DNA of 64,000 nt from Candidozyma auris (Eukaryota; Ascomycota; Pichiomycetes; Serinales; Metschnikowiaceae): assembly GCF_003013715.1 (NCBI RefSeq), contig NC_072812.1, positions 248,001 to 312,000 on the forward strand, read 5' to 3'. Positions 1,204 through 45,848 of this stretch are shown here, in pieces (position 1 is the first letter of the stretch; each line of letters begins with the position of its first letter). Below the pieces are notes generated by a model. The model was not told the DNA's origin. It did not search any database and saw nothing but the letters and a program-made list of their open reading frames with translations. The position numbers and the translations under genes were made by a program.

Positions 1204-2424
1204 GCGGTTTCGGTGTGCCTTCGGAATATGTGGGGGGATATCGAAGCGGTCTAAGTACAGTACGGATGAAAGCTACCAAGGGTAGCAGAAGGTGATTATG
1301 AGCAAAGTTACGGACCTGGTGTACATGCTTTATGATATAATTGTCTCTGAGATGCATTTCGTAGTCCTTCAGATTTTTTTTTTTTTTCAGTTCACCTATT
1401 GGGCTTTAATGAGCTCAGCGTAAGCTGACTGGCAATGGCAACTAGTTATAATGCACTTGTGCTTTCAATTGGTGTAGAGAGGCACACTACCATTATTACC
1501 TATTCGAAAGTCACAACACCTCTAAAGGTAGCTACTTGAATTTCACTTCCTCTCTTAAGGTATCTGCTTGATTTGTTGCTCTCTTTAATTGTGCTGTTTC
1601 GTGAGTGGACCGTTGAAATTTGAGGACCGGCTGAACTTGTACGTTCTTTTTTTTCGCAGCCAGTGTTGACCACATGAAAACTCCTTAGTTGAAACGACGA
1701 GTACATCAATAAAGTATAATTCTTTTTTGAGTGTATAAGCAGGTATTGTAAGTGGAAGTGGAGAACAAACTCAATTTTCCTTACTTGGGGTACCAGGTGA
1801 TGACTTCCTTGTAGATCCTTCGAAGTCTACGAAGCTACCCTCACCTATTATGATAGTAAATGGTGAAGCTAATCGCCCAACAATATGGTCGCAACAGTGT
1901 AGTGGATACATATCTATTGTCTAGTCCTCACTTGAAGAATTTCATATTCCTAATACGAAACGACCCCAAAGATGGCTCCATTGCACTCATTTGAAGCGGC
2001 AAAACTGGTCTCGTAGAACAAAAAAGCAGGCTGAAAGTGTGTGAATCAATTTAGAAAATGCCTAAAGACTTCATTTACTTACTTGACATTTATTGCATTG
2101 TTTACGTGCCCTTGTAATAGACGTGTCCATATATTTTGCAACCATTTCCAGAGCATATAACATAGCACCGCGAATGGTCGTGCGGTGTACACACGACCGT
2201 GTGTTGTCCTCTCACAAACGACGAGTTTTTTTCAGATCAAAATATCAAAAGAAGCTTATCGACATCAGGGAACAACAACTCACCAAATATTCGTGGCCCA
2301 ATTACCTTGTTCTGCTGTTGATTAGTTTCACATTTGACATCCATTGTTTGCTTTTAGTTCTTTTCCCCCTATATTATATCGCGTTTTCTAGCTTGTTCAT
2401 ACTTCATCCAAATCTATATACCTA
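1204..2424. other. JAC1-SEC23 divergent intergenic region
   Basis: This 1.2-kb region separates two divergent genes. It contains a homopolymeric T tract near 1373-1387 and one exact copy of the recurrent 10-mer TTTCGCAGCC (1652-1661). The short ORFs inside it (minus 1500-1709, plus 2093-2425) lack family features and have non-coding-like composition. I see no tRNA, snRNA or mobile element. Confidence 0.6.
1652..1661 (-). promoter_or_regulatory. recurrent 10-mer GGCTGCGAAA, JAC1/SEC23 copy
   Basis: Exact copy on the minus strand (TTTCGCAGCC on plus), followed on the minus strand by an A run. It lies 450 bp upstream of the JAC1 ATG and 760 bp upstream of SEC23. It belongs to the window-wide set described in the findings. 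The binding factor is unknown. Confidence 0.45.
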
Positions 2425-4668
2425 ATGGAGTTTGAGGAACAGGAAGACATCAATGGAATTCGTTTGGCATGGAACACGTTCCCTTCGACAAAAGCTGAAC
2501 TGAACAAGATTGTCGTCCCCACTGGCGTCTTGTACACGCCTTTAAAGTACAGAGAGGACTTGCCAGTGGCAGCGTACGACCCCGTGGTTTGTCACCAAAC
2601 ATCGTGTCGAGGGTTCTTGAACCCATTTGCCAAGTATGATGTCAACGGAGTGTGGATATGTCCCCTTTGCGGCACTAGAAATCCCTTACCTCCACATTAC
2701 CAAGGAATCAGTGCCGAGCATATGCCTCTCGAACTAAACCCAGCTTCCACTACCATGGAGTACATCACCTCCAAGCCAGTACAACATCCACCAATCTTTT
2801 TGTATGTGGTCGACTTGTGCCAGGATGAAGACAACCTAAATGCCTTGAAGGAGACCTTGATCGCGTCTCTTTCTTATCTTCCACCTAACGCCCTCATAGG
2901 CTTGATCACTTATGGCCAAATGGTCCAAGTGTATGACTTGGGTACGGGCATCATCAATAAATCCTACATCTTCCAAGGTAACAAGGAGTACACTGAAAGA
3001 CAAGTGGCGGACATGTTGAATAAACCAGTGCTTGCTCAACCAGGACAGCCTTCCATGCAAAATTCATTGCAGCGATTCTTCTTGCCGGTCGAGGAAATTG
3101 AACCCCAGTTCTGCGATCTCATCGATAGATTGACCACCGATCCTTGGCCAGTGGCCCATGGTGAAAGGCCCACTCGTGCTACTGGGTCTGCAATCAACGT
3201 GGCCACCTGCTTGCTTGGTAATACGTTCTCCGGCTTCGGCGCAAGGATATTTTTGTTTTCTGCCGGTGCGTCTACAAGGAATCCAGGTATGATTGTCGGG
3301 AAGAAATTGAGCGAGAACATCAGATCTCATTCCGATATCGATAAGGATAACGCAAAGCACTACAAAAAGGCGGTCAAGTTTTATGAAGGGGTGGCCGCCA
3401 AAGCTGTTAAGCACGGCCATGTCATTGACTTGTTCGGTGGTTGTTTAGATCAAGTCGGATTCCTGGAGATGAAGTCGATGTGCTCCAAGACCGGAGGTGT
3501 CTTGTTATTGTCTGATGCATTCACCACATCCATTTTCAAGCAGTCATTCCTCAAGCTCTTCAATAAAGACCAAAATGACTTCCTACTTATGGGGTTTAAT
3601 GGGACGTTAGAGATCAAGTGTTCTAGAGAATTGAAAGTCAGTGGTTTGATTGGACACGCGTCATCATTGAAGGCAAAAACTCACTATGTCTCAGAGACCG
3701 AGTTGGGTATTGGTGGCACAAACAAGTACAAAATGTGCGCCATTTCTCCACAGACCACTCATGCAATTTTTTTCGATGTGGTCAACAATCTGCCATTGCC
3801 TAATGAAGCTCAAGCTTACATGCAATTCATCACCACATATCAGCATGCCTCAGGTACTTATAGGGTAAGGGTTACCACAGTGGCAACAATCTTAACACCA
3901 GATGAGCAGCTTTTGGCCCAATCGTTTGACCAGGATGCTGCTGCAGTGTTGATGTCTCGTATCACCTTGTTCAAGTCTGAGCAGGACGATGGAGCCGATG
4001 TTTTGAGGTGGATTGACCGAATGTTGATCAAGTTGTGTCAAAAGTTTGCCGACTACAGAAAGGATGATGAAACATCGTTTAGGTTGCATCCACAATTCTC
4101 ATTTTTTCCTGGTTTTATCTATTACTTGAGAAGATCTCAGTTTTTGCAGGTGTTCAACAACTCGCCTGATGAGACAGCCTTCTATAGACATGTTTTCTTG
4201 ACAGAAAACTGCGGTAATTCGTTGATCATGATCCAGCCAACATTAACATCGTTCGGCCTCGATATTGAAGAGCCCGAGCCTGTCTTGTTGGATTCTGTTT
4301 CACTTAGGAATGACAGAATCTTGCTCTTGGATACTTTCTTCCACATTTTGATTTACCATGGACGCACAATCATGCAGTGGCGAAAAGAGGGTTATCAGAA
4401 CTTAGAGGAACATGCCGATTTTAAAGCATTGTTGGAAGAGCCTAAGCTTGAAGCGGGAGATTTGTTGATTGATAGGTTTCCATTACCGAGATTCATTGAT
4501 ACTCAAGAAGGTGGATCGCAAGCTAGGTTCTTGATGTCTAAGTTGAATCCAAGTACGTCATATAATTCTGAGCAAATCAGTAACGGAGCAATTGTCTTGA
4601 CTGATGATGTTTCCTTACAGGTTTTCATGTCGCACTTGCAGAAGTTGGTTGTGTCTGGGTCCAATTGA
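2425..4668 (+). CDS. SEC23: Sec23, GTPase-activating subunit of the COPII coat
   Basis: The product is 747 residues, close to the 768 of S. cerevisiae Sec23, and aligns along its whole length. The N-terminus ([20 protein letters not shown]) is diagnostic. A zinc finger uses C56, C61, C79 and C82. Trunk, beta-sandwich, helical and gelsolin domains follow. The C-terminus holds the conserved block around [16 protein letters not shown]. With Sec24 it forms the inner COPII coat at ER exit sites and activates GTP hydrolysis by Sar1. CTG codon 347 lies where S. cerevisiae has Ser (GMSEMK), one of the clues that CTG means Ser here. ATG 2425 starts the protein at its conserved N-terminus. Confidence 0.97.
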
Positions 4669-4878
4669 TACATCCCATGAAGAAAAAAAGAAGATTAGAA
4701 AAAAAAAGAATAGTACTCTAGCCACGGACGTCGTCTACAGGAAAGAAATAGCATATAAAAGTTATAAGTAATAAGAAATCAATTATAGCATTCATTACTA
4801 AAATGTCCCAAGTGACTGTATGCATCCCACTTTTCGGCAGTACTCAATCGCACTCGTTGATATCTTAAGCATCATCTA

Positions 4879-5966
4879 ATGTCAAACGAGGGTCAGTTGA
4901 CTGCTGGTATGTTATTTACAGGACCAACTGAATCTTACTTATATTCTAACATCTAGATGAAATTGCTTTGTACGATAGGCAGATCCGCTTATGGGGTACG
5001 GACACACAGCTTCGATTGAGGTCTGCTAAAGTATTGGTAGTGAACCTTGGAGGTGTAGGGTCTGAGACAGTCAAGAACCTCGTGCTCGGGGGTCTCAACA
5101 CCATTGAAATACTTGATGGCTCTGTTGTTAAGGAAGAGGATTTTGCAGCACAGTTCTTCTTGCCCAACGACGATAGTGTCGTTGGCGATTTGAAACTTCC
5201 TCTTATTTTACCACGCATTCAAGAACTAAATCCGAGGGTCAATCTCCTGATCAACACAACTAAGTTGGAGGACGTCCCTCTATCATATTACAAGAATTTT
5301 GACTTAGTTGTTGCCACTGAGGTGACGAAGGAGCAGATACTAGCAATAAACAAGATAACTAGAGACCACAAAATCCCACTCTTCGTTGCAGGTGAACATG
5401 GTATGTTCGGCTACATCTTCACCGACTTAATAGAGCACTCATCAACAAAAGAGCACACTGTTGGCAATCATCCGCGTCAGCCGGGCACAAAGATCAACGA
5501 GGTCAAAGAGGTGGTTAAAGTTGATTTGAAGGGAGATGGTGAAACTGAACTCGTCACAATTGTTGATAAGTTTGTTCCTTTGAGTCTGATCTTCAGCTCA
5601 AGCAAGTTACCACTTCAGCTTAGCAAGAGACAACTTAAAAGGCTAACGGGTGCGTTGCCTCTTATTCTCGCACTTTTTGAGTTCAAACGTCCTACGAATC
5701 CAGAAGAAATTATAGACACAGCACAATTGCTAGAAAAAGCTGAGCAAGTATGTGATGTTTTGGGAGTTTCACGACATGTTATCACCGAGGAGGACTTAAG
5801 GAACTTCGCTACACAATGCTATACGGAGTTTTCACCGGTTGCAGCCATCTTGGGTGGATTCTTAGCACAGGATATTATCCAATTTTTTGGCAAGAAAGAT
5901 AGTCCAATCAACAACTGTCTTATTTTTGATGGTTTGCGGTCGGAAGCCCCTATATACTTCTTATAA
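4879..5966 (+). CDS. AOS1: Aos1, SUMO-activating enzyme E1 subunit (one intron)
   Basis: The gene is join(4879..4906, 4957..5966) and encodes 345 residues, near the 347 of S. cerevisiae Aos1. The intron is 50 bp: GTATGT at 4907, branch site TTCTAAC at 4944-4950 and acceptor TAG ending 4956. Splicing yields MSNEGQLTADEIALYDRQIR, the expected start, and no in-frame ATG otherwise precedes ALYDRQIRLWG. The ThiF/Rossmann nucleotide-binding motif GGVG is at about residues 41-44. Aos1 pairs with Uba2, which carries the catalytic Cys, to adenylate SUMO (Smt3). The stop is 2 bp from that of convergent HDA3. Confidence 0.95.
4907..4956 (+). other. AOS1 intron
   Basis: A 50-bp intron starting GTATGT and ending ATCTAG. 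The branch sequence TTCTAAC leaves only six bases from the end of the branch motif to the last base of the intron. The phase and the restored protein N-terminus support it. Confidence 0.92.
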
Positions 5967-5968
5967 TA

Positions 5969-7903
5969 TCAACGATTGATGGGTGTGAGGCCCCTTCCTT
6001 TTCGACTCTTCAAATGTGAGGTATCTCTTAAGAATTTCAAAGACTTCACAAATTTCGTTTTAAGTGCCGTATTATCTTCTTTAGCTTGAGCGATTTCTTC
6101 AGCGATCGCTAGCTTGCGCTTTTTGAAGGATTCGCCCGCTTCTAACTCCGTCGTACGGGCAGCCTCGAGCTGCTTTTGTAAATCAGCGATTTTCTCACGA
6201 ACATCCTTCAACTGTTCCTCAGACAGTCTAATAGAGTTCTCACAATTCTCAATTTCACGCTTGGTGTAGCTCAATTCGTCATTCTTTGCCAGTAGCTTTT
6301 TGGCATCCTCCTTGACTTCAGTTTGCAACTGCCATATCTTTAGTTGGTTCTCCACAAACGCTCTCTTAATATCGTCATCCGGAATGCCTTTTTCTTTCAC
6401 AAAATTGTTCAACTTCTCTTTGTCGGATTCAATTTCAGCCTTATGAGCCTCCATTTCTTCCTGTCGCCTCTGAAGTTTCTTTTCGCTTACTTGTATTCTT
6501 TGCTCCACATGATCGACATCTCCAACAATGTTCGATAATGCTTGCTTCATTTCATCTAATCTTCTTCCAACCAAGTTGAGCCGTTCTTCTTTGTTGAAGT
6601 CGATATGACACTGATACTCCTCCTCGATTCTAGCAAGGTCTAAGTAACCCGCATTCAACTCAAGGATAAGCTTATGAGTAAGTATGGTTCTATCCTTACC
6701 TGATCTCTTCGATACTGCTGCGTGATTGTGGATACCACTCAAGATGTTGTAGTCGTTTTTGAGCGGATTCGTAACGTAGTCCAGTTGAAGCCTTTTCGTT
6801 TGATAGTATGTCTTTGACTTCGACGTACCATCCATAGCTGTTTCGTTTGAATCATATGGTGTATAGTGATAAACAACCTCCGTTAGAAGAGATCTCTCGA
6901 CATCAGTGGGAGAGAACTTTGGTATTTTTGGAAGCTCAGGTAATGGCCACGATGGGAACGAGCGATTATCACGACGAAAAACGTAGTCAAAGAACGTGTG
7001 TGACAAGTATGTGAGACTTTGATTATAGATGGGAAATATATCAGGCTGTAGATTTCCAATTCTGTCTCTTAAGCAAACGATGGATGAAATTAGTTTGTAA
7101 AGATAGCTTGGGTCCTCGTCCATCCCCTTATAGTGAAGTAAGCAATGCTCAATGGAGTATATTGGTATTAGTCTCACCATTACACATTCTTCACCTCTTC
7201 TGTTTTGTTGTCTCAAATTCTTGAAAAACGTGCATTCCGTGTCGACATGACCGTCCATAACAATAATGCAATCAAATTTAACGGTTTCTAGATCAGCTTC
7301 ATTTCTTGTGAGTTTCCCATCTTGAGGAATCATGTGCAACGTGAGTTGTGATCCCTTCGTGTTACCTTTCTGTATCTTAGCATTTTCTCGTTTAATGCTG
7401 TTTCCCACATATCTTTGAACAGTCTTGGAGCCCCGGCATCCAAGTAAGAGAGCCTCTATTAGATCCATCTCTCGGACGTTATTATTCATGACTAAGCCCA
7501 CATGCTTTGGTAGCGGCAGCACATTATTGGAGACCATAACATTGATAAGATCCTTCACCACGTTAAACTTTCCGCTTGTCTCGGCTAACTTCGCAGGCAA
7601 GTCTCTCATGGATAAGTTTTTTGGCATATAGTGTTGTATAAGCAAGTATGGATGCGTCGCAACAAGCATACAGTTCTCAACACATATTTGTAGCGACTTT
7701 ATGATGAGTTCCGTGGTATCATTTGTTTCACAGTATTTCAAGATGTCTGAATAGTGCAACGAGACAATTTGGTCGGTGAGCTCTTTTTGAAACTCAAACA
7801 TGGGGGTCGGCAAATTGTACACTCCAGAAGTATTAATTTCATCCAAGTGCAAGTCCACAATGGGGGGCTCAGGCACGTCGTCCAAAATACTGTGAAGATC
7901 CAT
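5969..7903 (-). CDS. HDA3: Hda3, subunit of the Hda1 histone deacetylase complex
   Basis: ATG 7903 gives 644 residues (S. cerevisiae Hda3 has 655). The frame is open 28 codons further upstream but holds no earlier ATG. The N-terminus MDLHSILDDVPEPP matches Hda3, followed by strongly conserved stretches such as FQKELTDQIVSLHYSDIL and VATHPYLLI.HYMPK. This N-terminal half is the SNF2-helicase-like DNA-binding domain of the Hda2/3 family. A long coiled coil, rich in E, K, Q and R (about residues 445-620), mediates assembly with Hda2 and Hda1. The complex deacetylates H3 and H2B and represses transcription. Confidence 0.93.
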   Translation of the reverse strand: MDLHSILDDVPEPPIVDLHLDEINTSGVYNLPTPMFEFQKELTDQIVSLHYSDILKYCETNDTTELIIKSLQICVENCMLVATHPYLLIQHYMPKNLSMRDLPAKLAETSGKFNVVKDLINVMVSNNVLPLPKHVGLVMNNNVREMDLIEALLLGCRGSKTVQRYVGNSIKRENAKIQKGNTKGSQLTLHMIPQDGKLTRNEADLETVKFDCIIVMDGHVDTECTFFKNLRQQNRRGEECVMVRLIPIYSIEHCLLHYKGMDEDPSYLYKLISSIVCLRDRIGNLQPDIFPIYNQSLTYLSHTFFDYVFRRDNRSFPSWPLPELPKIPKFSPTDVERSLLTEVVYHYTPYDSNETAMDGTSKSKTYYQTKRLQLDYVTNPLKNDYNILSGIHNHAAVSKRSGKDRTILTHKLILELNAGYLDLARIEEEYQCHIDFNKEERLNLVGRRLDEMKQALSNIVGDVDHVEQRIQVSEKKLQRRQEEMEAHKAEIESDKEKLNNFVKEKGIPDDDIKRAFVENQLKIWQLQTEVKEDAKKLLAKNDELSYTKREIENCENSIRLSEEQLKDVREKIADLQKQLEAARTTELEAGESFKKRKLAIAEEIAQAKEDNTALKTKFVKSLKFLRDTSHLKSRKGRGLTPINR

Positions 7904-8288
7904 CTTGAATTTGCGTATACTCGGAGTGTTGAAATAGTTTAAACCGTTTTTTTCGCAAACATTGTGATAAGCCAGCCTGCTATGCAAGACATACTTAAAG
8001 CGGGTGCGAGTGCTTATCAGCTAAAGGGTCCATCATGAAAAGATACAAAATAAAAAATTCGTTGGAAAAGGTAAACTTATGTAATTTTTGTCTAAAACTT
8101 ACAATCACATGATGGATCTCACTTCATATTTGCATTCCATCATAGTCTATGGTAAGTTTAAGGTTGATGGCTGCGAAAAAACGCTTAACATGAAGACACA
8201 TCTTATCAATCGAAAATCGAAGGATCTGAGTTTGAGAATATGTTGCAAGTATGCTTACCGTTTTCATGAGACATCATATCGTCATCCT
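7904..8288. other. HDA3 upstream / PRP4 downstream spacer
   Basis: This 385-bp spacer lies between two minus-strand genes. It must hold the PRP4 3' end and the HDA3 promoter. It carries one GGCTGCGAAA copy at 8169-8178. The plus ORF at 8088-8432 overlaps PRP4 in antisense and looks non-coding. Confidence 0.5.
8169..8178 (+). promoter_or_regulatory. recurrent 10-mer GGCTGCGAAA, HDA3 upstream copy
   Basis: Exact copy in the context TTGAT-motif-AAAAC, 266 bp upstream of the HDA3 ATG and 110 bp past the PRP4 stop. Read along the HDA3 strand it is TTTCGCAGCC. Confidence 0.45.
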
Positions 8289-9943: not shown

Positions 9944-9953
9944 GGCTGCGAAA
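9944..9953 (+). promoter_or_regulatory. recurrent 10-mer GGCTGCGAAA, PRP4 upstream copy
   Basis: Exact copy 213 bp upstream of the PRP4 ATG and only 5 bp beyond the stop of the minus-strand oxygenase gene. Read along the PRP4 strand it is TTTCGCAGCC. Confidence 0.45.
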
Positions 9954-11067: not shown

Positions 11068-14000
11068 CTAGCCCTGCGCTATGCTTTCTAAGCTGAGGAT
11101 TTTATCGTGCCAGCAAATCCGCTTCCCCACATAGCATAGGTTTTGTATATCTTTATAATTGGTGAATTCCGTCTTGTTGGATATTGGATGGGTGTCGAAC
11201 CTTGCAATTGGCCGAGCGGAAATTTTGGACGTTGCACCTCGCACTATGGAGGTAGCGAATCTTTTGAATGCCAATTTTACCAACTTGGAATTCTGTTTAC
11301 TCTCCTTGATATACTCCTTGAGAAGTACTGGTAAGTCAGTGAAGCCCTCTTGGTCTCTGCAAGCTTCGAGCAAGCTGGTCACTTTAGTGTGAGTGATGTT
11401 AACGTCCCCTTCTCGGAGTTGACGATGTATAATGGTTGCAAATTGCGACTTACAGGCTTCGTACAGCTGAGTCCCTGCAGCATTAGCGACAATGAGACAT
11501 GATCTTTGAGGGGATTTCACGGAAATAAATGTTCGGACATATTGTAAGAATGTTTCCAACGAGAGATTTTGAAGGAAATTCTTGTTGACCGGCTCTTCAC
11601 ATACCGTCCCTCCGAAGCGATATGTGCCGTTTATTATCTGATCGACCCTGCTCCAATGTGCCATGAATTCCGCAGTTTCTGGTTTATCTCCCGAGCCTTG
11701 CACAGGCTGTAGTGTCAGAAATAAGCCCGAGGGGGTATTGATGTGATTGGCATTCTGGTCGAGGGCTTGAATGAATGGTTCCAAAATTTCACTTTTAAAA
11801 CGCTCTTCGGTGAGTTGGTTTAGGTTTTGCTCCAAGCGCCACAAGTACCCTTCTATCTCGTCAGCTAGTCGGTGACAATCAAATTCTCCACTAGGAATCG
11901 TGATGTGAATTCCAAAGGATTGGCGAAAAAACTTCATCCCTGTAAAAGCCATGTAAGCTAAACGTCGCTTTGTTCGTAGCTCGTTTAATGCTGTATGTGA
12001 GAGATAATGTTCGAACAAACGGCCCCAAGCATATACTTCAAGATCATTCCTGGGCCCAAGCTGTAAATAGTAAAATACAGTGTTTGCCGTATCATCTGTG
12101 CCTCCTTGCAGTGAAAACATTAAATTTCGTCCATCGGGAAGAAAGTAGCTGGACGCATGACTTTGTTTGGCTAGTACGTTATATGAAGCAACTTGATTTT
12201 CCCCTAGGGAGACTGCGTCAATAATTTTTGTACGTTCTTCGTCGTCGATGTCTCCTTCAAATAAAAGCTGTGTAAATGGCTTTAATCTCAATAATTGTTC
12301 AGAAAGTGTTGTCAAGCTGTCCGTGTCATAAAGTTCCAATGCTTCAAGTTTTTGATTTGGAGTGATCAAATCCTTCTCAATAATAAGGTAGGCTGCAGAG
12401 AAAACCTTCCTCAAACCAGTTGCACTTTGCGTTTCTTCTATTCTTTTTCTTGTGTTCACTCTAGCCCGTTTGAACTGTTGATATGCAATCTTTTCCTTGC
12501 AGCCAATCCGCATTCGTAACTGATCAAGTATGATTTGCAACAACGTCACACTGCTGCTCTTTGGCCCTGAAACCGATACGAGTATTGAGGGTTCACCAGT
12601 TACATTGACGAAAAACCCCCATGTGTGACCCAAGAGCTCATAGTGATAAAGCTTGTATCGTAGCTCTTCTCCGACGATTTCTGCAACTAGCTCTATTCCC
12701 ACAATATTCTCGGGTGATTTTTCGATTTCACGAAGGTGAAAGGTCACAGTGATGTAAATCGACTCTTGATCCTCACCATCAGGGTCAATTTGCCATATCT
12801 CCGCAGCCTCATCAAACCAAACTAGGCATGGATGGTTTTCTTTGGCTCTCATACCTCTCACAAAACCAACATCATCGTTATCATCAGGATCGTTACTATT
12901 ACCCCTTTTTCTCGAGTTTTCAACCAGCTCTTTGAGATTTGAGGAGATAGTTGGTAGTTCAAGACCCAAGTCAAGGTCCAAATTAATGAAAGTCATTGGT
13001 GTTGATTCCGTTATCTTTACGAACTCATATTGATAGTACGAATCAGTGGCTATTTCGTAATCTTCCATATTTTTCTTGAAGTGGTTGAGTGGAGTGAGAT
13101 CCTTATGCGCCACGATTATACGTACGTTTTCTTCGGTGAAGCATTCTATGAACGCTTTTCGTAGTTGTTGCACGGTTTTGAGCCGACTCCCGTCTTCAAG
13201 CAAATCTCCGTACCCACGAACTATGTCTGGAAGTGCTAGGTCCCCTTTTTCAATTTTCTCACCATAGTCGCAAATTTCATCAACGAAGCATGCCTCGACA
13301 TTTCTTTGCAAAAATAGAGTTTCTTCAAGATCAAGCAAGTCACTAGCCACTTTTTCCAAATCGAATATGTTTGCCCTTACAACAGTATAGTTGACGAAGT
13401 AATGGAGTGTATCGATCACTTGAGGAAGGTTTTTCAAACCTAATGGTGTCAAGCCGATATCAACCACAAGCACATCATCATTCATGAACGTGTTTTGGCA
13501 GAATACCATGATGTCTGTGGCCCATCCCTTTTTGCGTTTTAAGTAATCGCAAACTGTGTTCATGGACTCGTCGCCAATTAGATTACAAATCAAGCTCTTG
13601 AGCCGCCCAATACCTGCTGTGTCAAAAATATGTTTCGATGGATAACATAGTCTTAGAAGTGTGTCCTTGGGAACCTTGAGAAAGATAGCCTTCGTCGTAG
13701 GCAGAAAAAGAGGAGTGTCGGAATATCCATAAAGCTGGGGGCTGAAGTATATGTCATGATCAGAAACGAAGGAGGAATTTGATCCCCTCCAGTGGTCAAG
13801 TGAGGTTATCACCAAGTCGGAGAAGTGAGCTACCAAAAGCTTCTTGAGGTGATTTATCGATTGGGGGCCTTTCAAAACAAGTACCATTTTCCGTGTAGTG
13901 TAGAAGCGTTGGAAGTATGCACGTAAATACCTCTGCAAGGTCTTCGTGCCGAGAGCACTTAACGTATCCTTGTTGCCTGTTCCAAAGCGATGGAAGGCAT

Positions 14001-14550
14001 GGTTTGGAGATGCAAGAAGACGAAGGGCGTGGAAAATTATTCTGTTCATGTCTTCCGTATTCCCTCGATGCTCTTCTTCCACAGCATTAATTTCTCCCTT
14101 GATGTATTTCTCCTTGAACAATGGGCATTTGAAAAATGACGAAAAAATATCAAGAACTTGGTCAATGATAAACACTGTTTCATCTGTTGACTTTGCAAAC
14201 GACGAGAGCTCGAAGTGGTAGCATGTATGCTCCATCGTAGTGTAAGCGTTGGTAAAGCCACCTGCCGAAGATACGATTTGATTAAGATGGTTAGGAATTG
14301 GATATGTTCGTGTTCCTAAAAACAACATGTGCTCACATAGATGAGCAAGGCCAAGAGATTCATCTGGGTCATTAGCAGAACCACTGCCGACTATCATGGC
14401 AGCGGAAAAGAGATCGCTGCTCCTATCATTTATCAAAAACGTTCGAAGTCCATTAGACAACTCCACGAGTTGATACTTGCGGTGGGAATGAGACCGTGGA
14501 ACATGTAACTTGACATCGATGTTTTTCACTTCGCTCACAAAAGTGTTCAT
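11068..14550 (-). CDS. AXL1: M16 metalloprotease, probable Axl1 (a-factor processing / bud-site protease)
   Basis: The product is 1160 residues. The inverted zinc motif HxxEH is at H70, E73, H74 (GLAHLCEHMLFLG). A third ligand Glu lies in the NAVEEEH segment near residues 158-160, so the protease looks active. The usual four M16 domains follow. Yeasts have two such insulysin-like enzymes: Ste23 (about 1030 residues) and Axl1 (about 1210). The length and divergent C-terminal half favour Axl1, which trims the a-factor precursor and directs axial budding in S. cerevisiae. Ste23 is the alternative. ATG 14550 begins the protein directly. A GGCTGCGAAA copy lies 266 bp upstream. Confidence 0.65.
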   Translation of the reverse strand: MNTFVSEVKNIDVKLHVPRSHSHRKYQLVELSNGLRTFLINDRSSDLFSAAMIVGSGSANDPDESLGLAHLCEHMLFLGTRTYPIPNHLNQIVSSAGGFTNAYTTMEHTCYHFELSSFAKSTDETVFIIDQVLDIFSSFFKCPLFKEKYIKGEINAVEEEHRGNTEDMNRIIFHALRLLASPNHAFHRFGTGNKDTLSALGTKTLQRYLRAYFQRFYTTRKMVLVLKGPQSINHLKKLLVAHFSDLVITSLDHWRGSNSSFVSDHDIYFSPQLYGYSDTPLFLPTTKAIFLKVPKDTLLRLCYPSKHIFDTAGIGRLKSLICNLIGDESMNTVCDYLKRKKGWATDIMVFCQNTFMNDDVLVVDIGLTPLGLKNLPQVIDTLHYFVNYTVVRANIFDLEKVASDLLDLEETLFLQRNVEACFVDEICDYGEKIEKGDLALPDIVRGYGDLLEDGSRLKTVQQLRKAFIECFTEENVRIIVAHKDLTPLNHFKKNMEDYEIATDSYYQYEFVKITESTPMTFINLDLDLGLELPTISSNLKELVENSRKRGNSNDPDDNDDVGFVRGMRAKENHPCLVWFDEAAEIWQIDPDGEDQESIYITVTFHLREIEKSPENIVGIELVAEIVGEELRYKLYHYELLGHTWGFFVNVTGEPSILVSVSGPKSSSVTLLQIILDQLRMRIGCKEKIAYQQFKRARVNTRKRIEETQSATGLRKVFSAAYLIIEKDLITPNQKLEALELYDTDSLTTLSEQLLRLKPFTQLLFEGDIDDEERTKIIDAVSLGENQVASYNVLAKQSHASSYFLPDGRNLMFSLQGGTDDTANTVFYYLQLGPRNDLEVYAWGRLFEHYLSHTALNELRTKRRLAYMAFTGMKFFRQSFGIHITIPSGEFDCHRLADEIEGYLWRLEQNLNQLTEERFKSEILEPFIQALDQNANHINTPSGLFLTLQPVQGSGDKPETAEFMAHWSRVDQIINGTYRFGGTVCEEPVNKNFLQNLSLETFLQYVRTFISVKSPQRSCLIVANAAGTQLYEACKSQFATIIHRQLREGDVNITHTKVTSLLEACRDQEGFTDLPVLLKEYIKESKQNSKLVKLAFKRFATSIVRGATSKISARPIARFDTHPISNKTEFTNYKDIQNLCYVGKRICWHDKILSLESIAQG

Positions 14551-14815
14551 AGTACCTCTTGCAAAGTTGTGTAGATGTGGACTTCATTTGGAGGTACTCA
14601 GTGGGTGCAAAACTTGCCCAAACGAGCCTCACAATGGGAGAACATGTTTCAGAATATGCAACATGAAACAGGATGGTGCCGGAGACAGATCCGAGAAAAT
14701 CCTGTTAAACAGAAGAAACATTTCGAAGTGGACTTTTCTTTCAGAATATGCGCAATATCTTGAACTTGACTTGTATGAGCATGTCAATTCCCGGCAGACT
14801 TGTTTCGTCACCACC

Positions 14816-14825
14816 GGCTGCGAAA
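14816..14825 (+). promoter_or_regulatory. recurrent 10-mer GGCTGCGAAA, AXL1 upstream copy
   Basis: Exact copy 266 bp upstream of the AXL1 ATG, the same distance as the copy upstream of HDA3. Along the AXL1 strand it reads TTTCGCAGCC. Confidence 0.45.
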
Positions 14826-16100: not shown

Positions 16101-16574
16101 ATGTCCAACCCTTACATATTTAACAACTATCAGCAATACTCCCCTCAAATGAATAATGCCCAAATGAACGCTTCGCCCACGTTTGCCAATTTGCAATACC
16201 TTGGCGGTCTGGCCAACTCAACAACTAGCTCCTCCTTGTCATCGTCCTCGTCGGCCACTTCCTCCCTCACCTCCAACTATTCCTTACACAACTCAAGATT
16301 GAGATACTACTTGTCGAAGTCTTTTGACGCTGAGGATGACATGGAGTTTTGTCCCGACATTCCTGAGTCCTTCACCGCTGGCCACTCCAAGAAATTCAAT
16401 CCTTACACGGCCAGTGTGTTTGCTCCGACTGCCTATCATGGTGAAGTACCTAGTCTGCCCAACAATCAGTCATCAGACTCTCCTAGAGCCACTACTTCTA
16501 GAATCAGAAAGCCTGTGGAAATCGTCAACCCCCACACGAAGGTGAGGATCACTTCTCCTGCTACTCACAAGTGA
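16101..16574 (+). CDS. small serine-rich protein of unknown function
   Basis: The product is 157 residues and I do not recognise it. It starts Asn/Gln/Met-rich, has a Ser/Thr tract at about residues 41-58, then an acidic patch (AEDDMEFCPDIPE). The segment KKFNPYTASVFAP resembles the poly(A)-binding-protein ligand motif PAM2, but with one extra residue. It ends basic (RKPVEIVNPHTKVRI), a style seen in low-complexity RNA-related yeast proteins. No membrane segment or signal peptide is visible. The stop TGA sits inside a GTGAGT sequence (16571-16576), so a 5' splice site at the end is conceivable, but I find no convincing branch site downstream. Codon use looks coding. Confidence 0.7.
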   Translation: MSNPYIFNNYQQYSPQMNNAQMNASPTFANLQYLGGLANSTTSSSLSSSSSATSSLTSNYSLHNSRLRYYLSKSFDAEDDMEFCPDIPESFTAGHSKKFNPYTASVFAPTAYHGEVPSLPNNQSSDSPRATTSRIRKPVEIVNPHTKVRITSPATHK

Positions 16575-19874: not shown

Positions 19875-19946
19875 TCCGAGATAGTTTAGTGGCTAGAATT
19901 ACCGCTTGTCGCGTGGTAGACCGGGGTTCAATTCCCCGTCTCGGAG
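19875..19946 (+). tRNA. tRNA-Asp (GUC)
   Basis: A 72-nt cloverleaf. The acceptor stem TCCGAGA pairs with TCTCGGA, followed by a G discriminator. The anticodon GTC is at 19908-19910. The T-arm contains GGTTCAATTCC. It closely matches S. cerevisiae tRNA-Asp. No intron. Confidence 0.97.
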
Positions 19947-19958
19947 AACTTACTCACG

Positions 19959-20029
19959 GCGCAAGTGGTTTAGTGGTAAAATCCAACGTTGCCATCGTTG
20001 GGCCCCCGGTTCGATTCCGGGCTTGCGCA
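19959..20029 (+). tRNA. tRNA-Gly (GCC)
   Basis: A 71-nt cloverleaf, seemingly identical to the yeast tRNA-Gly(GCC) sequence as I know it. The acceptor stem GCGCAAG pairs with CTTGCGC, followed by an A discriminator. The anticodon GCC is at 19991-19993. It starts 12 bp after the tRNA-Asp gene, with no T run between them. Confidence 0.98.
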
Positions 20030-37841: not shown

Positions 37842-39569
37842 ATGACTCTTTCAAACAAGGAGTCTGGCGATTCAGCTAGCACTTATGCATATGAGGCACA
37901 GGAGACCTCTTCGAGATGGCGGTCCTTCAAGGATTCCTTCAAGGCTGCTGACACCGTCACCGCCGATGATTTTTCAGACAACGAATTGGACGTTGTGCAA
38001 AGAGCAAACCAGAACGCTAAGAACTCTCAGCTCTCCAGAAGATTAAAGAATAGACACCTACAAATGATAGCCATTGGTGGATCCATTGGCACCGGTTTGT
38101 TCGTCGGGTCTGGGTCCGCTTTGGCCACAGGTGGTCCAGGCGGTATAGTATTGGCTTGGGTGATCACTGCTACTTCTATCTACACCACGATGCAAGGTTT
38201 AGGTGAGCTCAGTACCGCATTTCCGATCAGTGGAGGCTTCAACATATACGCTACAAGGTTTCTTGAGCCTGCAATAGGCTTCGCAGTAGGTTGGAATTAC
38301 TTCATGCAATTCTTTGTCTTGCTTCCGTTGGAATTGGTGGCTGCTTCCATCTCCATTAAGTACTGGAACTCCGAGCTAAACCCTGATATATTTGTTGCCA
38401 TTTTCTGGGTCGTGGTATTCCTTATCACGATGATGGGTGTTCGCTGGTATGGAGAAGCCGAGTTTATTTTCTGCTTGATCAAGGTTGTTACCGTCATTGG
38501 ATTCATCATTTTGGGAGTTGTGCTTATTTGTGGCGGTGGGCCTACCAAGGACTTTGTTGGTGGAAGATACTGGAGGCATCCAGGTGCCTTCGCTCACGGC
38601 TTCAAAGGTGTCTGTTCCGTGTTCGTCACTGCCGCATTCTCCTTCGGTGGAACTGAAATGATCAGTTTGGGAGCTGCTGAGGCCGCCAATCCAAGTAAGG
38701 CTATCCCGCAGGCTATCAAGCAGGTTTTTTACAGAATCATTATTTTTTACTTCGGGACCATTATCGTTATCGCTACCCTCGTTCCATACAACGATCATCG
38801 ACTTTTGAATGCTGAATCTAGTGTTGATGCAACAGCTTCTCCATTTGTCATAGCTATCGTCAACGGAGGCATCAAAGGGTTGCCTTCTGTGATTAATGCA
38901 GTCATTTTGATTGCTGTGTTGTCTGTTGGTAATGCATCCGTTTACGCATGCTCTCGTTCGCTTAATTCGCTCGCCGAACAAGGCATGGCTCCGAAGTGGA
39001 CTGGATATGTTGACAGAGCCGGTCGTCCTCTCGTTGCAATCATCGTAACTAACATTTTCGGACTTTTCGCTTTCATTGCTGCTTCCGACAAACAGACGGA
39101 GGCTTTTAACTGGTTGCTTGCTTTGAGTGGTCTTTCCTCCATCTTCACTTGGATGTCCATCAATATGGCCCATATTCGTTTCAGATACGCCATGAAGGCA
39201 CAAGGCAGATCCTTGGACGAATTGGCCTTTAAGTCTTCCATTGGAGAGCTTGGATCGTGGTACGGATTTCTCATCAACTTTCTTGTGCTTATTGCTCAGT
39301 TCTGGTTGTCCTTATTTCCCATTGGGGCTGCTCCGAATGCCTCCGATTTCTTCCAAGGCTACTTGGGTTTTCCGGTCGTTCTCATCAGTTGGATCGGGTA
39401 CAAGATTTATTCAAAGAACATGAGAATGTACATTCCTGCTGATGAGATTGACGTGGACTCTGGTCGCAGTGTTGTTGACACTGATCTAATCAAGCAAGAG
39501 GAAGAGGAAGAACAGGCCAGACGTGCCCAAATGCCGTGGTACAAATGGATCATTGGATTCATCTTTTAG
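37842..39569 (+). CDS. amino-acid permease (AAP/YAT family, GAP1-AGP type)
   Basis: The product is 575 residues with 12 predicted membrane segments. The signature start of TM1 is clear ([20 protein letters not shown]), as are [24 protein letters not shown] and the [21 protein letters not shown] block of TM8. The N-terminal cytoplasmic tail is Ser/Lys/Glu-rich. The C-terminal tail ends in an acidic run and [10 protein letters not shown] rather than the Cys of Gap1. It imports amino acids with protons across the plasma membrane; specificity cannot be read from the sequence. It is convergent with a paralogue whose stop lies 190 bp away. Confidence 0.93.
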
Positions 39570-39759
39570 GTTGAGCACCTTGTATATTATATCATAAAAC
39601 TGGACACGACTTTCACGAACTTTATAGATCTACATAATCTGATCAATAATATCTTTTATTTTGAAGGTATTTTACAAGTCGGTTTGAGAACTGAATGGAC
39701 GAAAACAATTAATTGAAAGCATCCCGGCTTTCAAAGGCGCTGAGGCATTTATAATTCGT

Positions 39760-41520
39760 CTAACAGAAAGTCTTATAGACTTTATAGTAGAAAGGTTTGC
39801 TGCGGATGTAAGCTTTCTCTTCGGCAATTTCCTGTTTTAAAAGATCCAAGTCCAACTCTCTTCTACCAGTGTCAATGTCGATCTCATTCACAGGAATCCA
39901 CATTCTCCAGTTTTTCTTCCAAATTTTGTGGAATACGTAGAAAACAATAATAATTGGGAAGGATAAGTATGACTTAAAGAAGGACTCAGCTTCTGGCTTA
40001 CCTCCGATAGGGAACAAAGCAATCCAGAATTGAGCGATGAGCACCAAGAAATTCAAGGTAATACCAAAAATGGAGCCCACAATTCCTGCCTGCGATGTGT
40101 AAGCCAATTCGTCAGTAGTTCTTCCTTGTGACTTCAATGCCCATCTGAATCTGAGATGACTTCCACAAATAGAGCCCCAGGTGAAAAGCGAGGACAAACC
40201 TGAGAGAGCCATCATCCAGTCGAAAGCTTCACCTTGTTTGTCAGATGCTGATATGAAGCAAAGAAGACCAAAAACACCCGCTAAGAGAATACCAAAGATT
40301 GGCCTACCTCTCTTGTCGATGTAGTTAAAAATTTTAGGAGCGAAACCAGCAGCAGCGAGAGCAGCCAATGTTCTAGAGGAGCCAAAGACTGAAGAGTTCG
40401 CAACAGACAAGACCGCAATCATGATAACAGCATTCATGACGGATGGCAATCCGCCAATACCAGCGTTTCGGATACCGATAACAAATGGTGAGTATCTGGC
40501 AGTACCATCAGACTTCTCGAGTTCTTCGTTGTTGTAAGGAACCATACAGCCAACAACGATCAAAGACACAAGGTAAAAAAGAGTGATTCTCCAAAACACT
40601 TGTTTGGTAGCCTTAGGAAGAGACTTTCTTGGGTTGGCAGTCTCCGCAGAAGCCAAACCAGCCAACTCGGTACCAGAAAAAGCAAAAGCTGCAGTAACGA
40701 AGACAGAGCAAAGACCTTTGAAGCCGTGATTGAAGGCGCCAGGATCATGCCAATATTTTCCACCAATGTATCCACCCTTTGGACCACCGCCACAAACAAT
40801 CACGATACCAAGAATAATGAATCCAATAACAGCGATAACCTTGACAGCAGAGAAAACGAACTCAGCTTCACCGTAACCCTTCACACCAAAAAGGTTGATA
40901 CCCATGATAAAAACGTAAAAAGCAACACAGTAAGCAGCAGAATTCGTTTTGTCATCCCAAAACTGGACTGTGATAGCAGCTGCAACTAATTCCAAGGGTA
41001 GAACAACTAACCATTGCATGGCATAGTTCCAAGCCATGGCAAAAGACCAAGAGGGATCGATGAAACGAGTATTGTAAGTGACGAAAGCACCGGACACAGG
41101 GAAAGTGACAGCCAACTCACCCAAAGCATGAACAGTACAGAAAATCATGCAACCGATCAAGAAGTAGGCAATCACCACAGATGCTGGACCACCGTTAGCC
41201 AAAACTTTACCAGAACCAATGAATAAACCAGTACCAATGGCACCACCAATAGCAATCATCTGCAAGTGTCTGTCCTTGAGAGATCTAGACAAGGGAGAGT
41301 TTGCAGTGATGATGGCCGTTTTTTCGATATCAGACAAGCCAGGGTCTAAGCCCAAATCCTTCTCATCAAATCTTCTGAAGCCATCCACGAAGCTCTCCCA
41401 TCTGCCCATAGGCTCCTTGTGGTCCTGTTCATCGAAAGCATTGATGTACACGCCACCGTCCTTTTCGTCGGAAGACACTTGTTCTCTGGACGTAATGTAA
41501 ACAAGTTCTTTCTCAGGCAT
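39760..41520 (-). CDS. general amino-acid permease, GAP1/GAP2-like
   Basis: The product is 586 residues with 12 predicted membrane segments and the same family motifs as its neighbour ([55 protein letters not shown]). It ends KPFYYKVYKTFC; a C-terminal Cys after a KPxxYK segment is like S. cerevisiae Gap1. The N-terminal tail has Lys residues and acidic patches of the kind used for ubiquitin-dependent down-regulation. Codon use is biased, suggesting strong expression. Its upstream region is unusually long and carries GATA sites. A role as general amino-acid permease or transceptor is an inference. Confidence 0.93.
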   Translation of the reverse strand: MPEKELVYITSREQVSSDEKDGGVYINAFDEQDHKEPMGRWESFVDGFRRFDEKDLGLDPGLSDIEKTAIITANSPLSRSLKDRHLQMIAIGGAIGTGLFIGSGKVLANGGPASVVIAYFLIGCMIFCTVHALGELAVTFPVSGAFVTYNTRFIDPSWSFAMAWNYAMQWLVVLPLELVAAAITVQFWDDKTNSAAYCVAFYVFIMGINLFGVKGYGEAEFVFSAVKVIAVIGFIILGIVIVCGGGPKGGYIGGKYWHDPGAFNHGFKGLCSVFVTAAFAFSGTELAGLASAETANPRKSLPKATKQVFWRITLFYLVSLIVVGCMVPYNNEELEKSDGTARYSPFVIGIRNAGIGGLPSVMNAVIMIAVLSVANSSVFGSSRTLAALAAAGFAPKIFNYIDKRGRPIFGILLAGVFGLLCFISASDKQGEAFDWMMALSGLSSLFTWGSICGSHLRFRWALKSQGRTTDELAYTSQAGIVGSIFGITLNFLVLIAQFWIALFPIGGKPEAESFFKSYLSFPIIIVFYVFHKIWKKNWRMWIPVNEIDIDTGRRELDLDLLKQEIAEEKAYIRSKPFYYKVYKTFC

Positions 41521-43124
41521 TACGACAGTTACTAAGTTGCACTAAAAAAGCTACGTTTCCAGGGCTTTAGTGCCACCTTATATAATGGTTGCAAAATGTG
41601 GTGATAAGAGAGGGCACATGCGAGCCGGTACATTGGCGGCGATTGTTATCAATGAGCAGACATTTGGGGAAACATGTCTGTCTGCGCTATCTGGCAAAAT
41701 GCCGCGTTCCGGCAGCGCCTACCAAATGATGGTGCCAGTACGAGGCGGCCAGGGACCCGGGCGACAATTGCAGCAAATGATGTAAAAGAGAAAACGGACA
41801 ATAATTACCTTTGATATAATCCACCTTGCGCATTGTGGGGAAAACTACTGGACGAAATAAACTCAGAGGAAGGGGCAATCCTTTCTTTTTTTTTATTTTT
41901 TTCGTTTGTTAGCTCGGGGTGTGGCGTCCGTCACCGATACAATCCCTAGCATGAGCAGGAATCAAGCCAGATAACAAGGGAGAGTTTAGCCCCAGCGCGA
42001 AAGCGTCGGTGCGATTCTTCAGCGAGCAATTGGGCGGCAGAGGAGGCAGGCAGGCAGGCAAACGGCAGGACAAACGGCAGGGCGGCGAGTGCATCCTCAG
42101 TTGGAAACATAAGCCTGTTAGCCCCAATAACAGTAGAATTGAAGATCCAAAAGACTGCCCAGCAACTTGTGTTCTTCGCTGGCATTGATGAAAGGTTTGA
42201 CAGCTTTCTTTTTTCTTATTTGCTGTGCCAAGTAGGGGTAGCCGAGGAGTTCGCTTGTGAGCAGGGGTGGGTGCGAAAACTTCCCCCCTCGCCGCGAACA
42301 AGAATTTGAGAACAAAAGGGCTTGTTCAAAGATGAAGGCAGGCTTGAGCGGAGGCGTTTGGCACGGCGTTTTTTATGTCTTGTGCTATATCGCTCCGAAA
42401 AGCACAATAACCTAGATCAGGCAAAATGTGGGTTTTCTGCCGGCGTCGTGCTTTCGACATCTTGAAGATCTGGACTGAAGCCTGAGGTAGATTTCATGCA
42501 TGTGGTCAGGGAGCCTTATCTCTGGCGAGCGGCACAAAGATTGGGCGAAAAGTCAAGCAGCAGAAGCCATTTTTACATTCGCCACTTTAGATAGTCAATA
42601 TCGTTCGATCTGTAGCTTTGCTCTATGAGACATTACTTTTCTTAAGATGCATGATTATCCGTCTGCCTCGGTGTTAGAAGCTCTTTTTCGTACCTCTAAG
42701 CTCGCTCGCTTATCTCTGCCCGGGATGGCTTTTCGCAACTACTAGCGCGATACTAGTAAAACGCTATGTCTAGGATACCTATTGTGTTACAACACTAGCA
42801 AAAGGTCAATATTCCAATCTCCGCTGTGGTCCTCGGACCTGGCTACCATCAAGAGAGGCCCAATGTGGGGATTTTTGGAGTGAGTTTAAGGTTTCTGTTT
42901 ATCGCATACTTCCGTGAATGAGACTTTCTTTTTGCTGATTTACCATCTCTATCGTTCCTGGGCATTAAGCTACTATGCGACCACGCGGCCGCTACTCCGA
43001 TAAGCTTAAAGGGTCCCTTTCCTTTTGCTCCTCCTTGTCTAGTTTGCGATCTACGCAAAACGTCTATCTTTTAATATATTTTTAAACTTTACAAATTATA
43101 TGATGCAATGAAACAGGGCGGGAA
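41521..43124. promoter_or_regulatory. 1.6-kb upstream region of the GAP-like permease
   Basis: No gene is evident. GATAAG cores occur at 41603-41608, 42515-42520 (reverse), 42709-42714 (reverse) and 42998-43003. The variant element GGTTGCAAAA is at 41587-41596, 67-76 bp from the ATG and just after a TATATAAT sequence. A GGCA tetranucleotide repeat lies at 42045-42060. The GATA sites fit nitrogen catabolite repression. Confidence 0.5.
42045..42082. repeat. GGCA microsatellite plus a 12-bp tandem duplication
   Basis: Four GGCA units (42045-42060) run into two near-identical copies of CAAACGGCAGG separated by GA. It is non-coding and may vary in copy number between strains. Confidence 0.75.
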
Positions 43125-43284
43125 TTATTTTTTTTCTTTCTTCTCCTTCTTGTCTTTCTTCTCTTTCTTCTCCTTCTTCTCTTTCTTCTCTTTCTTCTCT
43201 TTCTTCTCCTTCTTCTCTTTCTTCTCCTTCTTCTCCTTCTTGTCCTTCTTCTCTCTCTTCTCTTTCTTCTCCTTCTTCAGTTTT
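43125..43284 (-). repeat. NOP58: triplet-based minisatellite encoding the Nop58 KEKK tail
   Basis: About 160 bp built almost only of CTT, TTC and CTC/TTT units on plus, coding for repeated [10 protein letters not shown] on minus. Charged KKE/D tails are normal for Nop58/Nop56. The near-pure repeat is a hotspot for length change. The plus-strand frame it opens (SFFSFFSF repeats) is a shadow. Confidence 0.85.
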
Positions 43285-44702
43285 TTGCTTGGCTTGGCAG
43301 TCTCTTTTTCCTCCTCATCGTCGGAGTCATCTCTCTTTCTCTTCTTAGGCGCCTCTTCCTCGTCGGATTCATCGTCTGAGTCAGCAGCAGCGGCAGGTGC
43401 GAGAGAGTCAGCGTCGGCATTGTATGCCTTGGACTCGGTGATATCGATCTTCTTAGCGTCTCTGGCGACCTTCGAGGTAGTTCTCAAGTCTCTTCCCTCC
43501 AATGCACTCAATCTCGACTCAACCTTGGCTCTCACCTCCATACCGAAATCACCAGAGTCGTCCCTGTCCTCTGAAAGAGAGTCGTACCTCAATGCAACCG
43601 CAGCTTTCGCAGCTAAAACTCTGGCAATTTTGCCCTTGTTTTTACCGGTAGCCTGACCGACCAATGATGCGTGGTATAACAAACCGTATTTAGGCGTGTC
43701 ATGCTTGGTTTTGAGAGCCCTGAAAAGCGCCTTTTCAGCACCCAAGATCTGGATTGTGGAAGCTGGAGCCTTGGCTAACGACGTGAGGGAGCCAGCATGA
43801 GCAATCAAACGAGCACCAACCAATTCACCGACAAGAGAAGTCAAGTTTGGAGCAATGGCCTTCATACGAGAAGACAAGTAGTTAGATAATTGTTCTCTGT
43901 AGGCGGCGAATTCGACGATCTGTTCGGCGAGAGACTTAATGTTGTCCAAATCGGTTTCGGTAATTTCAGTACCCATGGATACCTCGGCAGCACTCTTGAC
44001 TTGTTCCTCAACTTCCTCAGGCAAGATCTCAGATAAGTCAGTCTCAGAAGCGTTGGATCTGACGCCCATGGTCAAGATAATTCTGGCGTAAGCAACAGAG
44101 TCTGTTATAAGCTTTGCCAATTCAGGGAAATGCCAACCGTACCATTCTTTACATCTCATGGCGTATGTGTTCAATTCCTTGTCCAAGTCGTCTAAAAGTG
44201 CGATAGCTTGCACAATCATGGTGTCAACTTTGTCAGCAGAGAACTTCAATTTGTGTCTACCGATGGAATGAGCCAAACCAAGAGACATTTGCTTCAAGAC
44301 AGAGTCGTCTAAACCTGGCAAAAGCTCAGGCAAAAATTCCTTGATGGATCTGTGCAAGTCCAAAGAGGCAGCGTCCGACACTACCGAGTAGTTTAAGCCC
44401 AACTTGTTGATAGCATTACCCAACTTGGCCTCGCTGACTACCAAAGTCACTTTCTTTTCGAGTTTGACGTCCTCCAACATCTTCTTCAAAGTGTCCGAGA
44501 CTTTGCCCTCCATCACAGCATTAGCTTCTTCCAAAGCGTTGGCCGCAGATTGGAACTTCTCGAAGCGATGGATCTTCAACTGCTCAGCGACCTTTTCTGC
44601 CGAGTTCAAGTCCTCGAGCAAGGACAGCGACTTGTGAATTTTCTTGTCGGCCGCCTTTAAAAGGGCGTAACCGGCGGCAGTTTCCGTCAACACGTAAGCC
44701 AT
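43125..44702 (-). CDS. NOP58: Nop58, core box C/D snoRNP protein
   Basis: The product is 525 residues (S. cerevisiae Nop58 has 511). The order is NOP5 N-terminal domain, coiled coil, NOSIC and Nop domain ([25 protein letters not shown]), then a charged tail. The stretch [20 protein letters not shown] separates it from Nop56. With Nop56, Nop1 and Snu13 it forms the 2'-O-methylation snoRNP in the nucleolus. The tail is a long run of KEK/KKE units from about residue 470, encoded by a TTC/CTT repeat. Codon use is highly biased, as in abundant ribosome-biogenesis proteins. Confidence 0.97.
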
Positions 44703-44759
44703 GGCGTGGTTTGGAGTGTCGATCTGGAGTTGAGGTTTGAGATGGAACCGAGAAGCTCT

Positions 44760-44779
44760 TGAAAATTGTGTGAGATGAG
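44760..44779. promoter_or_regulatory. RRPE-like plus PAC-like element pair upstream of NOP58
   Basis: TGAAAATT at 44760-44767 and GAGATGAG at 44772-44779, 58-77 bp upstream of the NOP58 ATG. Close pairing of RRPE and PAC is the hallmark of yeast rRNA-processing genes. The copies are near-consensus, not perfect. Confidence 0.45.
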
Positions 44780-45838
44780 GTGGGAAAAAACTTCGACTCT
44801 ACCTGTGTGCAAGGCTGGCACCTTGGGGTGTATAGATGCAGGATCATATTAACATTACGTGAATTGCCCAAATTTCAAATATACTGTCAAGTTTTCTTGT
44901 ATTTTTTTTTCTGGAGTTGAGAATCATCGCATCTCAATCGATTAAACAATATCCCTCATTGATTTTGGGGGTGTTGTGCATCATGTGAAAAGACTCTACC
45001 AAGGAGCATACAATGAGTTTTCGCAGCGATTTTACTAGGGTGTCTCGTTGACGTAGATAATTTCAGGCAAACGGTGACATGGAGGAAACCTTGAGTTTTG
45101 ATGAAAACCAAACCTCCCTGTCTAATATACTCATGATTTGAGGTTGTTAAATCTTCCTTCTCGAGGATTGCAAAATCCCCTCTTTTGTGTTAAGACATGC
45201 CAGAATGTCAATTGCGAATAGAGCTGTGGATATCTCAAACAACTTAATATTCTCGTTCTAGTATTCAAGATGTTTACGAAGTGATCATAAGCCAAGTATT
45301 GACTATATTAAACGAGCAGGGACATCAAATGAGAAGCAAAATGCCTTTTAAGTACCGAATATCTCCGCATTTGACAAGTAGAGACTTCTTCATTTCAGGA
45401 CGTTTGACCACGTTGATGCGACTTGAGCTTTTATAACTAAGTAGAACGTTACTCCTCCCCTTCTCTCCTTTTGCCTCACCGTTGCCAAACTTGGTCTTAA
45501 TCTTCTTGTTCAACTATAATCGAAACGAATTTAGTTCACTGTCAACTTGATAAGATAGGACACAATATTTCGTATAATGAATCGTTAAGCTTGATTTTGA
45601 ATGCAACTCCTACTACGCCAACAAAATTGTTGGCTCGCTGATTCCTAGATCAAGTAGTGATAATGCAAGTACTCAGATTAGCCTCAACCTAGCAACATCC
45701 ATTGAATGCAGAAGTCGTCCTGTCAAAAAAAGTTTTCTTCTTCCAGCCCCTTCACTCTCGACACTGGTAATGATTATCGAACAACTTACTTCTCGAGTAA
45801 CTCGACATTAGTGAGAGGCCATTCATGGCAAAGCCGTT

Positions 45839-45848
45839 TTCGCAGCCA
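45839..45848 (-). promoter_or_regulatory. recurrent 10-mer GGCTGCGAAA, DNA2 upstream copy
   Basis: Exact copy (TTTCGCAGCC on plus), 323 bp upstream of the DNA2 ATG. In the minus-strand reading the context is AGAAT-motif-ACG. Confidence 0.45.

Follow-up and report, generated by a model that had tools for sequence, protein, structure and literature searches.

A 12-bp word, TGGNTGCRAAAW, which recurs in a 64-kb stretch of DNA from Candidozyma (Candida) auris, is probably bound by a general-regulatory-factor-like protein at the promoters of this yeast. The whole stretch, here called the window, corresponds to C1:248001-312000 of the 12.25-Mb genome, C1 being one of its 7 contigs; the SEC23 protein encoded at 2425-4668 had 100 % identity to C. 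auris, with the next relatives at about 80 %. Yeast general regulatory factors act on many genes of unrelated kinds, binding to their promoters and opening the chromatin. The word is over-represented, lies mainly in promoter-type DNA in either orientation, does not belong to a repeat and has unrelated neighbours. Promoter restriction, absence from convergent intergenic DNA, the lack of an orientation preference and the unrelated adjacent genes are the reasons for the proposed assignment. An abundant sequence-specific DNA-binding protein would occupy TGGNTGCRAAAW as an asymmetric single unit and would keep promoters nucleosome-free, directly or through a remodeller; its role would be a general promoter opening instead of the switching of a single pathway.

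The core of the word, the 10-mer GGCTGCGAAA, was present in nine exact copies on both strands of the window, whereas 100 dinucleotide shuffles of the window averaged 0.13 copies and never exceeded 2. The initial annotation had reported these nine copies, with one start given as 45839 instead of 45838, and about 0.1 copies expected by chance, in agreement with our counts. With low-complexity words excluded, GGCTGCGAAA was the most frequent 10-mer of the window. Placement was read in 264 kb, consisting of the window and the 200-kb block C1:1500001-1700000, and in small loci, while counts were taken genome-wide. The top two 10-mers of the 264 kb were TGGCTGCGAA (21 copies) and GGCTGCGAAA (20 copies); for words of equal composition the mean was 0.38 copies and the maximum 4 (5000 shuffles). 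In the promoter-type DNA of the same sample, defined as intergenic DNA with at least one bordering start codon (21 % of bases), TGGCTGCG ranked second behind poly(A) among the 8-mers with at least eight copies there, 22 occurrences being observed vs 1.05 expected.

Genome-wide counts on both strands, with the reversed word as control, yielded for the commonest 12-bp form TGGCTGCGAAAW 792 copies (410 and 382 on the two strands) vs 2, an excess of about 400-fold, so that a frequency at the level of shuffled words was not seen. Further counts were 528 vs 1 for TGGCTGCAAAA, 330 vs 5 for TGGTTGCAAAA, 94 vs 10 for TGGTTGCGAAA and 2345 vs 93 for TGGNTGCNAAA, the last an excess of about 25-fold. The expectations of an order-3 Markov model built from the 264 kb were 4.8 for TGGCTGCGAAAW, 16.8 for TGGCTGCAAAA, 16.7 for TGGTTGCAAAA, 8.4 for TGGTTGCGAAA and 178 for TGGNTGCNAAA; thus about 2,170 TGGNTGCNAAA sites are beyond expectation. 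A strand bias along C1, where listed sites were forward-only past about 1.14 Mb, was rejected, as both strands were used in C1:1500001-1700000 and the strand totals were balanced. Three TGGCTGCGAAAW sites lie on the same strand in C1:1121954-1122801, about 409 and 427 bp apart.

Forty sites were aligned, 34 being the promoter sites from the 264-kb sample and six coming from a set of eight genomic TGGCTGCGAAAW loci. They gave TGG[C>T>G>A]TGC[G>A]AAA[A/T], and on either side of it the information was at background level. Nine of these letters were preset by the search pattern; the strictness recurs without preset letters, since single-base variants of TGGCTGCGAAA were found at most once each in promoter DNA, positions 4 and 8 excepted. 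The site is not palindromic, therefore one asymmetric DNA-binding unit would be the simplest reading. Flanks rich in A/T, as annotated initially, were confirmed at position 12 (37 of 40 sites) and mildly at the pair of bases just 5' of the motif (29 of 40 at each), but not beyond: the A+T content out to 100 bp was 0.56-0.62 vs 0.574 in promoter-type intergenic DNA. The flanks also bear on the idea that the copies are remnants or ends of a dispersed repeat family, for which the chance is negligible. Mean identity over 80 bp of flank was 0.26 (top pair 0.44), vs 0.25 (top 0.41) in random intergenic pieces, and information fell to background outside the 12 bp; for the 40 aligned sites, whose flanks are without homology, a repeat family is refuted.

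Calling of open reading frames (ORFs) with a minimum of 100 amino acids gave 28 in the window and 101 in the 200-kb block, the two parts of the 264 kb. Among 39 TGGNTGCRAAA sites, 34 were in promoter-type DNA, 4 in called ORFs and 1 at the window edge (unclassified), which presents a promoter-type share of 34 of the 38 classified sites (p = 2e-19). Between convergent genes, where the sample has 7.0 kb of intergenic DNA, no site occurred (p = 0.013). Sites were present in 13 of the 25 divergent and 16 of the 73 tandem regions, together 29 of 98 promoter-type regions, and in none of the 25 convergent ones; densities were similar in divergent (14 sites in 21.3 kb) and tandem regions (20 sites in 33.6 kb). 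With respect to the gene, 15 of the promoter sites had the same and 19 the opposite orientation, hence no preference. In raw percentages, an A7/T7 tract occurred within 100 bp of 26 % of promoter sites vs 18 % of random promoter positions. One of the four ORF sites, at 14602, and the copy at 14816 are inside an automatically called 113-amino-acid ORF, which shares sequence with the beginning of the AXL1-like gene at 11068-14550 (-) and is probably spurious. The copy at 49296 is located in the DNA2 coding sequence, as annotated before.

Pfam families were assigned to 16 of 20 site-adjacent proteins and were diverse: SEC23, a JAC1-like co-chaperone, HDA2-3, two WD40 proteins, M16 peptidase, leucine-rich-repeat, DNA2, aldolase/adducin, PUF, MFS, RAV1, cytidylyltransferase, base-excision glycosylase, a Zn2Cys6 factor and ABC1 kinase. 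By inspection of these families the adjacent genes look unrelated, without a visible common pathway, in line with the earlier claim of unrelated neighbours. An alternative would be the site of a conventional transcription factor that activates or represses a very large regulon, e.g., in response to growth or stress, and does not organise nucleosomes. Such a site would equally be confined to promoters and strict in sequence, and the high information from position 1 to position 12 suits it as well. However, about 2,170 excess sites next to genes unrelated by inspection are broad for one pathway, and we consider such a regulator unlikely. With the class of general regulatory factors the motif shares many, mainly promoter-located sites, functionally unrelated targets as judged by inspection and orientation independence; it appears general-regulatory-factor-like in behaviour and is a candidate member of the class.

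The initial annotation had proposed a general regulatory factor site or a replication-origin element. The former fits placement, orientation and neighbours, whereas the latter, an element bound by the origin recognition complex, is disfavoured by number and spacing and seems very improbable. Its intergenic location would suit an origin, but location alone cannot decide, since the origins of four studied yeasts likewise favour intergenic, nucleosome-free DNA according to a passage of PMC4333867. The excess of sites in 12.25 Mb corresponds to one per 5.6 kb, and the spacing on C1 is irregular, with a coefficient of variation of 0.89 for 92 TGGTTGCAAAA sites and 1.20 for 43 TGGCTGCGAAAW sites. 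The surroundings are not A/T-rich, the convergent regions of the 264 kb are devoid of sites, and the C. albicans origins tested had no obvious common primary motif, as far as an excerpt of PMC6403455 reports.

Positions 4 and 8 of the motif are coupled. The first 100 listed TGGNTGCNAAA sites comprised 33 C4G8, 21 C4A8, 19 T4A8 and 2 T4G8 (Fisher p = 6e-5), and whole-genome counts gave an odds ratio of 5.3, in which C4G8 is slightly underestimated as its count demands W at position 12. In raw counts from 66 sites, an A directly 5' of the motif preceded 16 of 23 C4A8/T4A8 but 12 of 35 C4G8 sites. Such coupling points to two modes of binding or to a pair of related factors. Two factors sharing the motif, one reading TGGCTGCGAAAW and the other AATGGYTGCAAAAW, would account for the coupling and for the more frequent preceding A, yet C4A8 is common (528 copies) and links both forms, both forms are promoter-located, and non-additive binding by one protein would be enough; this explanation we regard as rather doubtful.

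In abundance, promoter confinement, use of either orientation and unrelated genes the C. auris motif resembles the sites of the general regulatory factors Reb1, Abf1, Rap1 and Cbf1, but the word itself differs from the consensus of each of Reb1, Abf1, Cbf1, Tbf1, Rap1 and Rpn4. A Reb1/Nsi1 site was rejected, as the motif is without the TTACCCG(G) core. A passage of PMC7565893 gives TTACCCGG as the Nsi1/Reb1 motif of C. albicans and has the C. auris Nsi1 tagged; in the C. auris genome TTACCCGG occurred 116 times vs 360 for the reversed word, a rough guide as the reversed control differs in dinucleotides. A Cbf1 site was rejected for want of the CACGTG core. This E-box is a palindromic basic helix-loop-helix site, an unrelated word, and is promoter-enriched in C. 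auris too: CACGTGAC had 8 promoter and 0 coding occurrences in the 264 kb, and GTCACGTG counted genome-wide 533 vs 255 reversed, an excess far below that of the motif.

The site of Rpn4, the proteasome-associated control element (PACE), is GGTGGCAAA. The motif comes close to it, GGTTGCAAAA and GGTGGCAAAA differing by one base, but has a fixed T at position 5 where PACE has G. Eight proteasome-subunit promoters out of 14 matches were examined (L029-L036). None contained TGGNTGCRAAA, about 2.4 being expected of average promoters, which disfavours an Rpn4/PACE site; one had GGTTGCGAAA, with the leading T missing. In the 1 kb preceding the domain match, GGTGGCAAA was present at one of the eight loci and CACGTG at three. 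Rpn4-type control of the proteasome genes may be different in C. auris.

A site for a telomere-repeat factor of the Rap1/Tbf1 type was rejected, as the motif word is missing from the telomere repeat. This repeat of about 20-21 bp, with a unit of approximately AGGTGGTGTCTGGGTTTCTT, was found at both ends of C1 and at the start of C2 (L037:1-371, L038:1287-1500 and the start of L039), whereas the inspected ends of L040, at the start of C3, did not show it. At the right end of C1, one TGGTTGCAAAA is situated about 1.1 kb inward of the repeat (L038:178).

Candidates for the binding protein may be sought among C2H2 zinc-finger proteins and among factors of the WRKY-GCM1 type (Aft, Rbf1). The minority form TGGGTGCA agrees with the Aft core, whereas the majority forms have C or T where Aft requires G, and the telomere repeat of this genome is without the word. 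A C. albicans protein binding the RPG box, the subject of a 1997 title, is presumably Rbf1. The title is cited in PMC13123710, and Rbf1 is present in other CTG-clade members according to PMC11221756. The Mrr1 motif of C. lusitaniae, CGGAGWTAR in an excerpt of PMC12607694, differs from the C. auris motif.

Several observations weigh against a general regulatory factor site. A fixed distance to the ATG was not found for the 34 promoter sites, which lie 18-752 bp from the nearest ATG in a uniform-like distribution (Kolmogorov-Smirnov p = 0.33); the 210-330 bp noted initially apply to four of the eight intergenic exact copies. A second sample of 20 loci (L001-L008, L043-L054) contained 19 with a centred site, L044 being mis-centred. 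Here 12 of the 19 sites were outside ORFs of at least 80 amino acids, each flanked by a start codon on one side or both, while 4 were inside short ORFs (91-142 amino acids) and 3 inside ORFs of more than 200 amino acids. Two of the four short-ORF sites (L003, L004) adjoin in one region. This sample is weaker than the contiguous 264-kb test, partly because shorter ORFs were accepted. The motif is not universal, as its absence from the eight proteasome-subunit promoters demonstrates. Finally, the Reb1-type word TTACCCG keeps some promoter preference: on few counts (5 promoter, 6 coding), its density in promoter DNA of the 264 kb is about 3-fold that in coding DNA, so that a replacement of Reb1 would be conjecture.

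General regulatory factors turn over between yeasts, as stated in PMC2897762, where candidate words were found via nucleosome depletion, including the C. albicans-specific CACGAC, which the C. auris word does not resemble; the passage names C. albicans and D. hansenii. A far-reaching version for C. auris would be that about a third of its promoters, and perhaps those of close relatives, are run by a general regulatory factor undescribed in other yeasts. This factor would have taken over much of the Reb1-type work, perhaps via a recruited lineage-specific zinc-finger or transposase-derived protein, and would read two linked versions of the site. We advance this scenario tentatively and lean somewhat against it. 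A topic search of open-licence papers, which is no proof of an unpublished motif, turned up no paper describing the word, and matches to its letters in text were, among the matches listed, apparently unrelated sequence or primer hits. If a general regulatory factor site, the word would rank first among the promoter-organising elements of an important human pathogen and offer a concrete case of a lineage replacing its promoter-opening protein. A defined 12-bp site with a genome-wide count makes a direct search for the protein possible. If bound in vivo, the word is to be expected as background in C. auris data from the assay for transposase-accessible chromatin with sequencing (ATAC-seq) or from cleavage under targets and release using nuclease (CUT&RUN).

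The sites of the window are collected in Table 1. The near variants named initially are real (37229, 41586, 35020 and 45019), but six TGGNTGCRAAA sites had been missed (12, 2134, 14602, 15771, 37727 and 42268).

Table 1. Motif sites in the window, in window coordinates
Word	Position	Strand	Location
TGGATGCGAAA (motif variant)	12..22	-	window edge, neighbours uncalled
TGGCTGCGAAA	1652..1662	-	divergent promoter, JAC1-like / SEC23
TGGTTGCAAAA	2134..2144	-	JAC1-like/SEC23 divergent promoter; SEC23 ATG 286 bp away
TGGCTGCGAAA	8168..8178	+	269 bp upstream of HDA2/3-like gene
TGGCTGCGAAA	9943..9953	+	216 bp upstream of WD40 (PRP4-like) gene
TGGGTGCAAAA	14602..14612	+	within probably spurious 113-amino-acid ORF; M16 peptidase (AXL1-like) ATG about 50 bp downstream
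CGGCTGCGAAA (first base deviates)	14815..14825	+	266 bp upstream of M16 peptidase (AXL1-like) gene
TGGCTGCGAAA	15553..15563	-	543 bp upstream of ORF at 16101
TGGGTGCGAAA	15771..15781	+	325 bp upstream of ORF at 16101
TGGCTGCGAAA	21229..21239	+	522 bp upstream of leucine-rich-repeat gene
TGGCTGCGAAA	26747..26757	+	111 bp upstream of 537-amino-acid ORF without Pfam family
TGGTTGCAAAA	35020..35030	-	divergent promoter; aldolase/adducin-domain gene 456 bp away
TGGCTGCAAAA	37229..37239	+	608 bp upstream of ORF at 37842
TGGATGCAAAA	37727..37737	+	110 bp upstream of ORF at 37842
TGGTTGCAAAA	41586..41596	+	70 bp upstream of ORF ending at 41520 (-)
TGGGTGCGAAA	42268..42278	+	752 bp upstream of ORF ending at 41520 (-)
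TCGCTGCGAAA (near variant)	45019..45029	-	
TGGCTGCGAAA	45838..45848	-	divergent promoter; 328 bp upstream of DNA2
TGGCTGCGAAA	49296..49306	-	within DNA2 coding sequence

Apart from the motif, genes for tRNA-Asp(gtc) and tRNA-Gly(gcc) are located at 19875-20029 of the window, on the same strand with 12 bp between them. For 5S rRNA, two dispersed matches were reported from the scoring of the best candidates, C1:2105474-2105594 with 81 bits and C2:1750750-1750858 with 49.6 bits (L041, L042).

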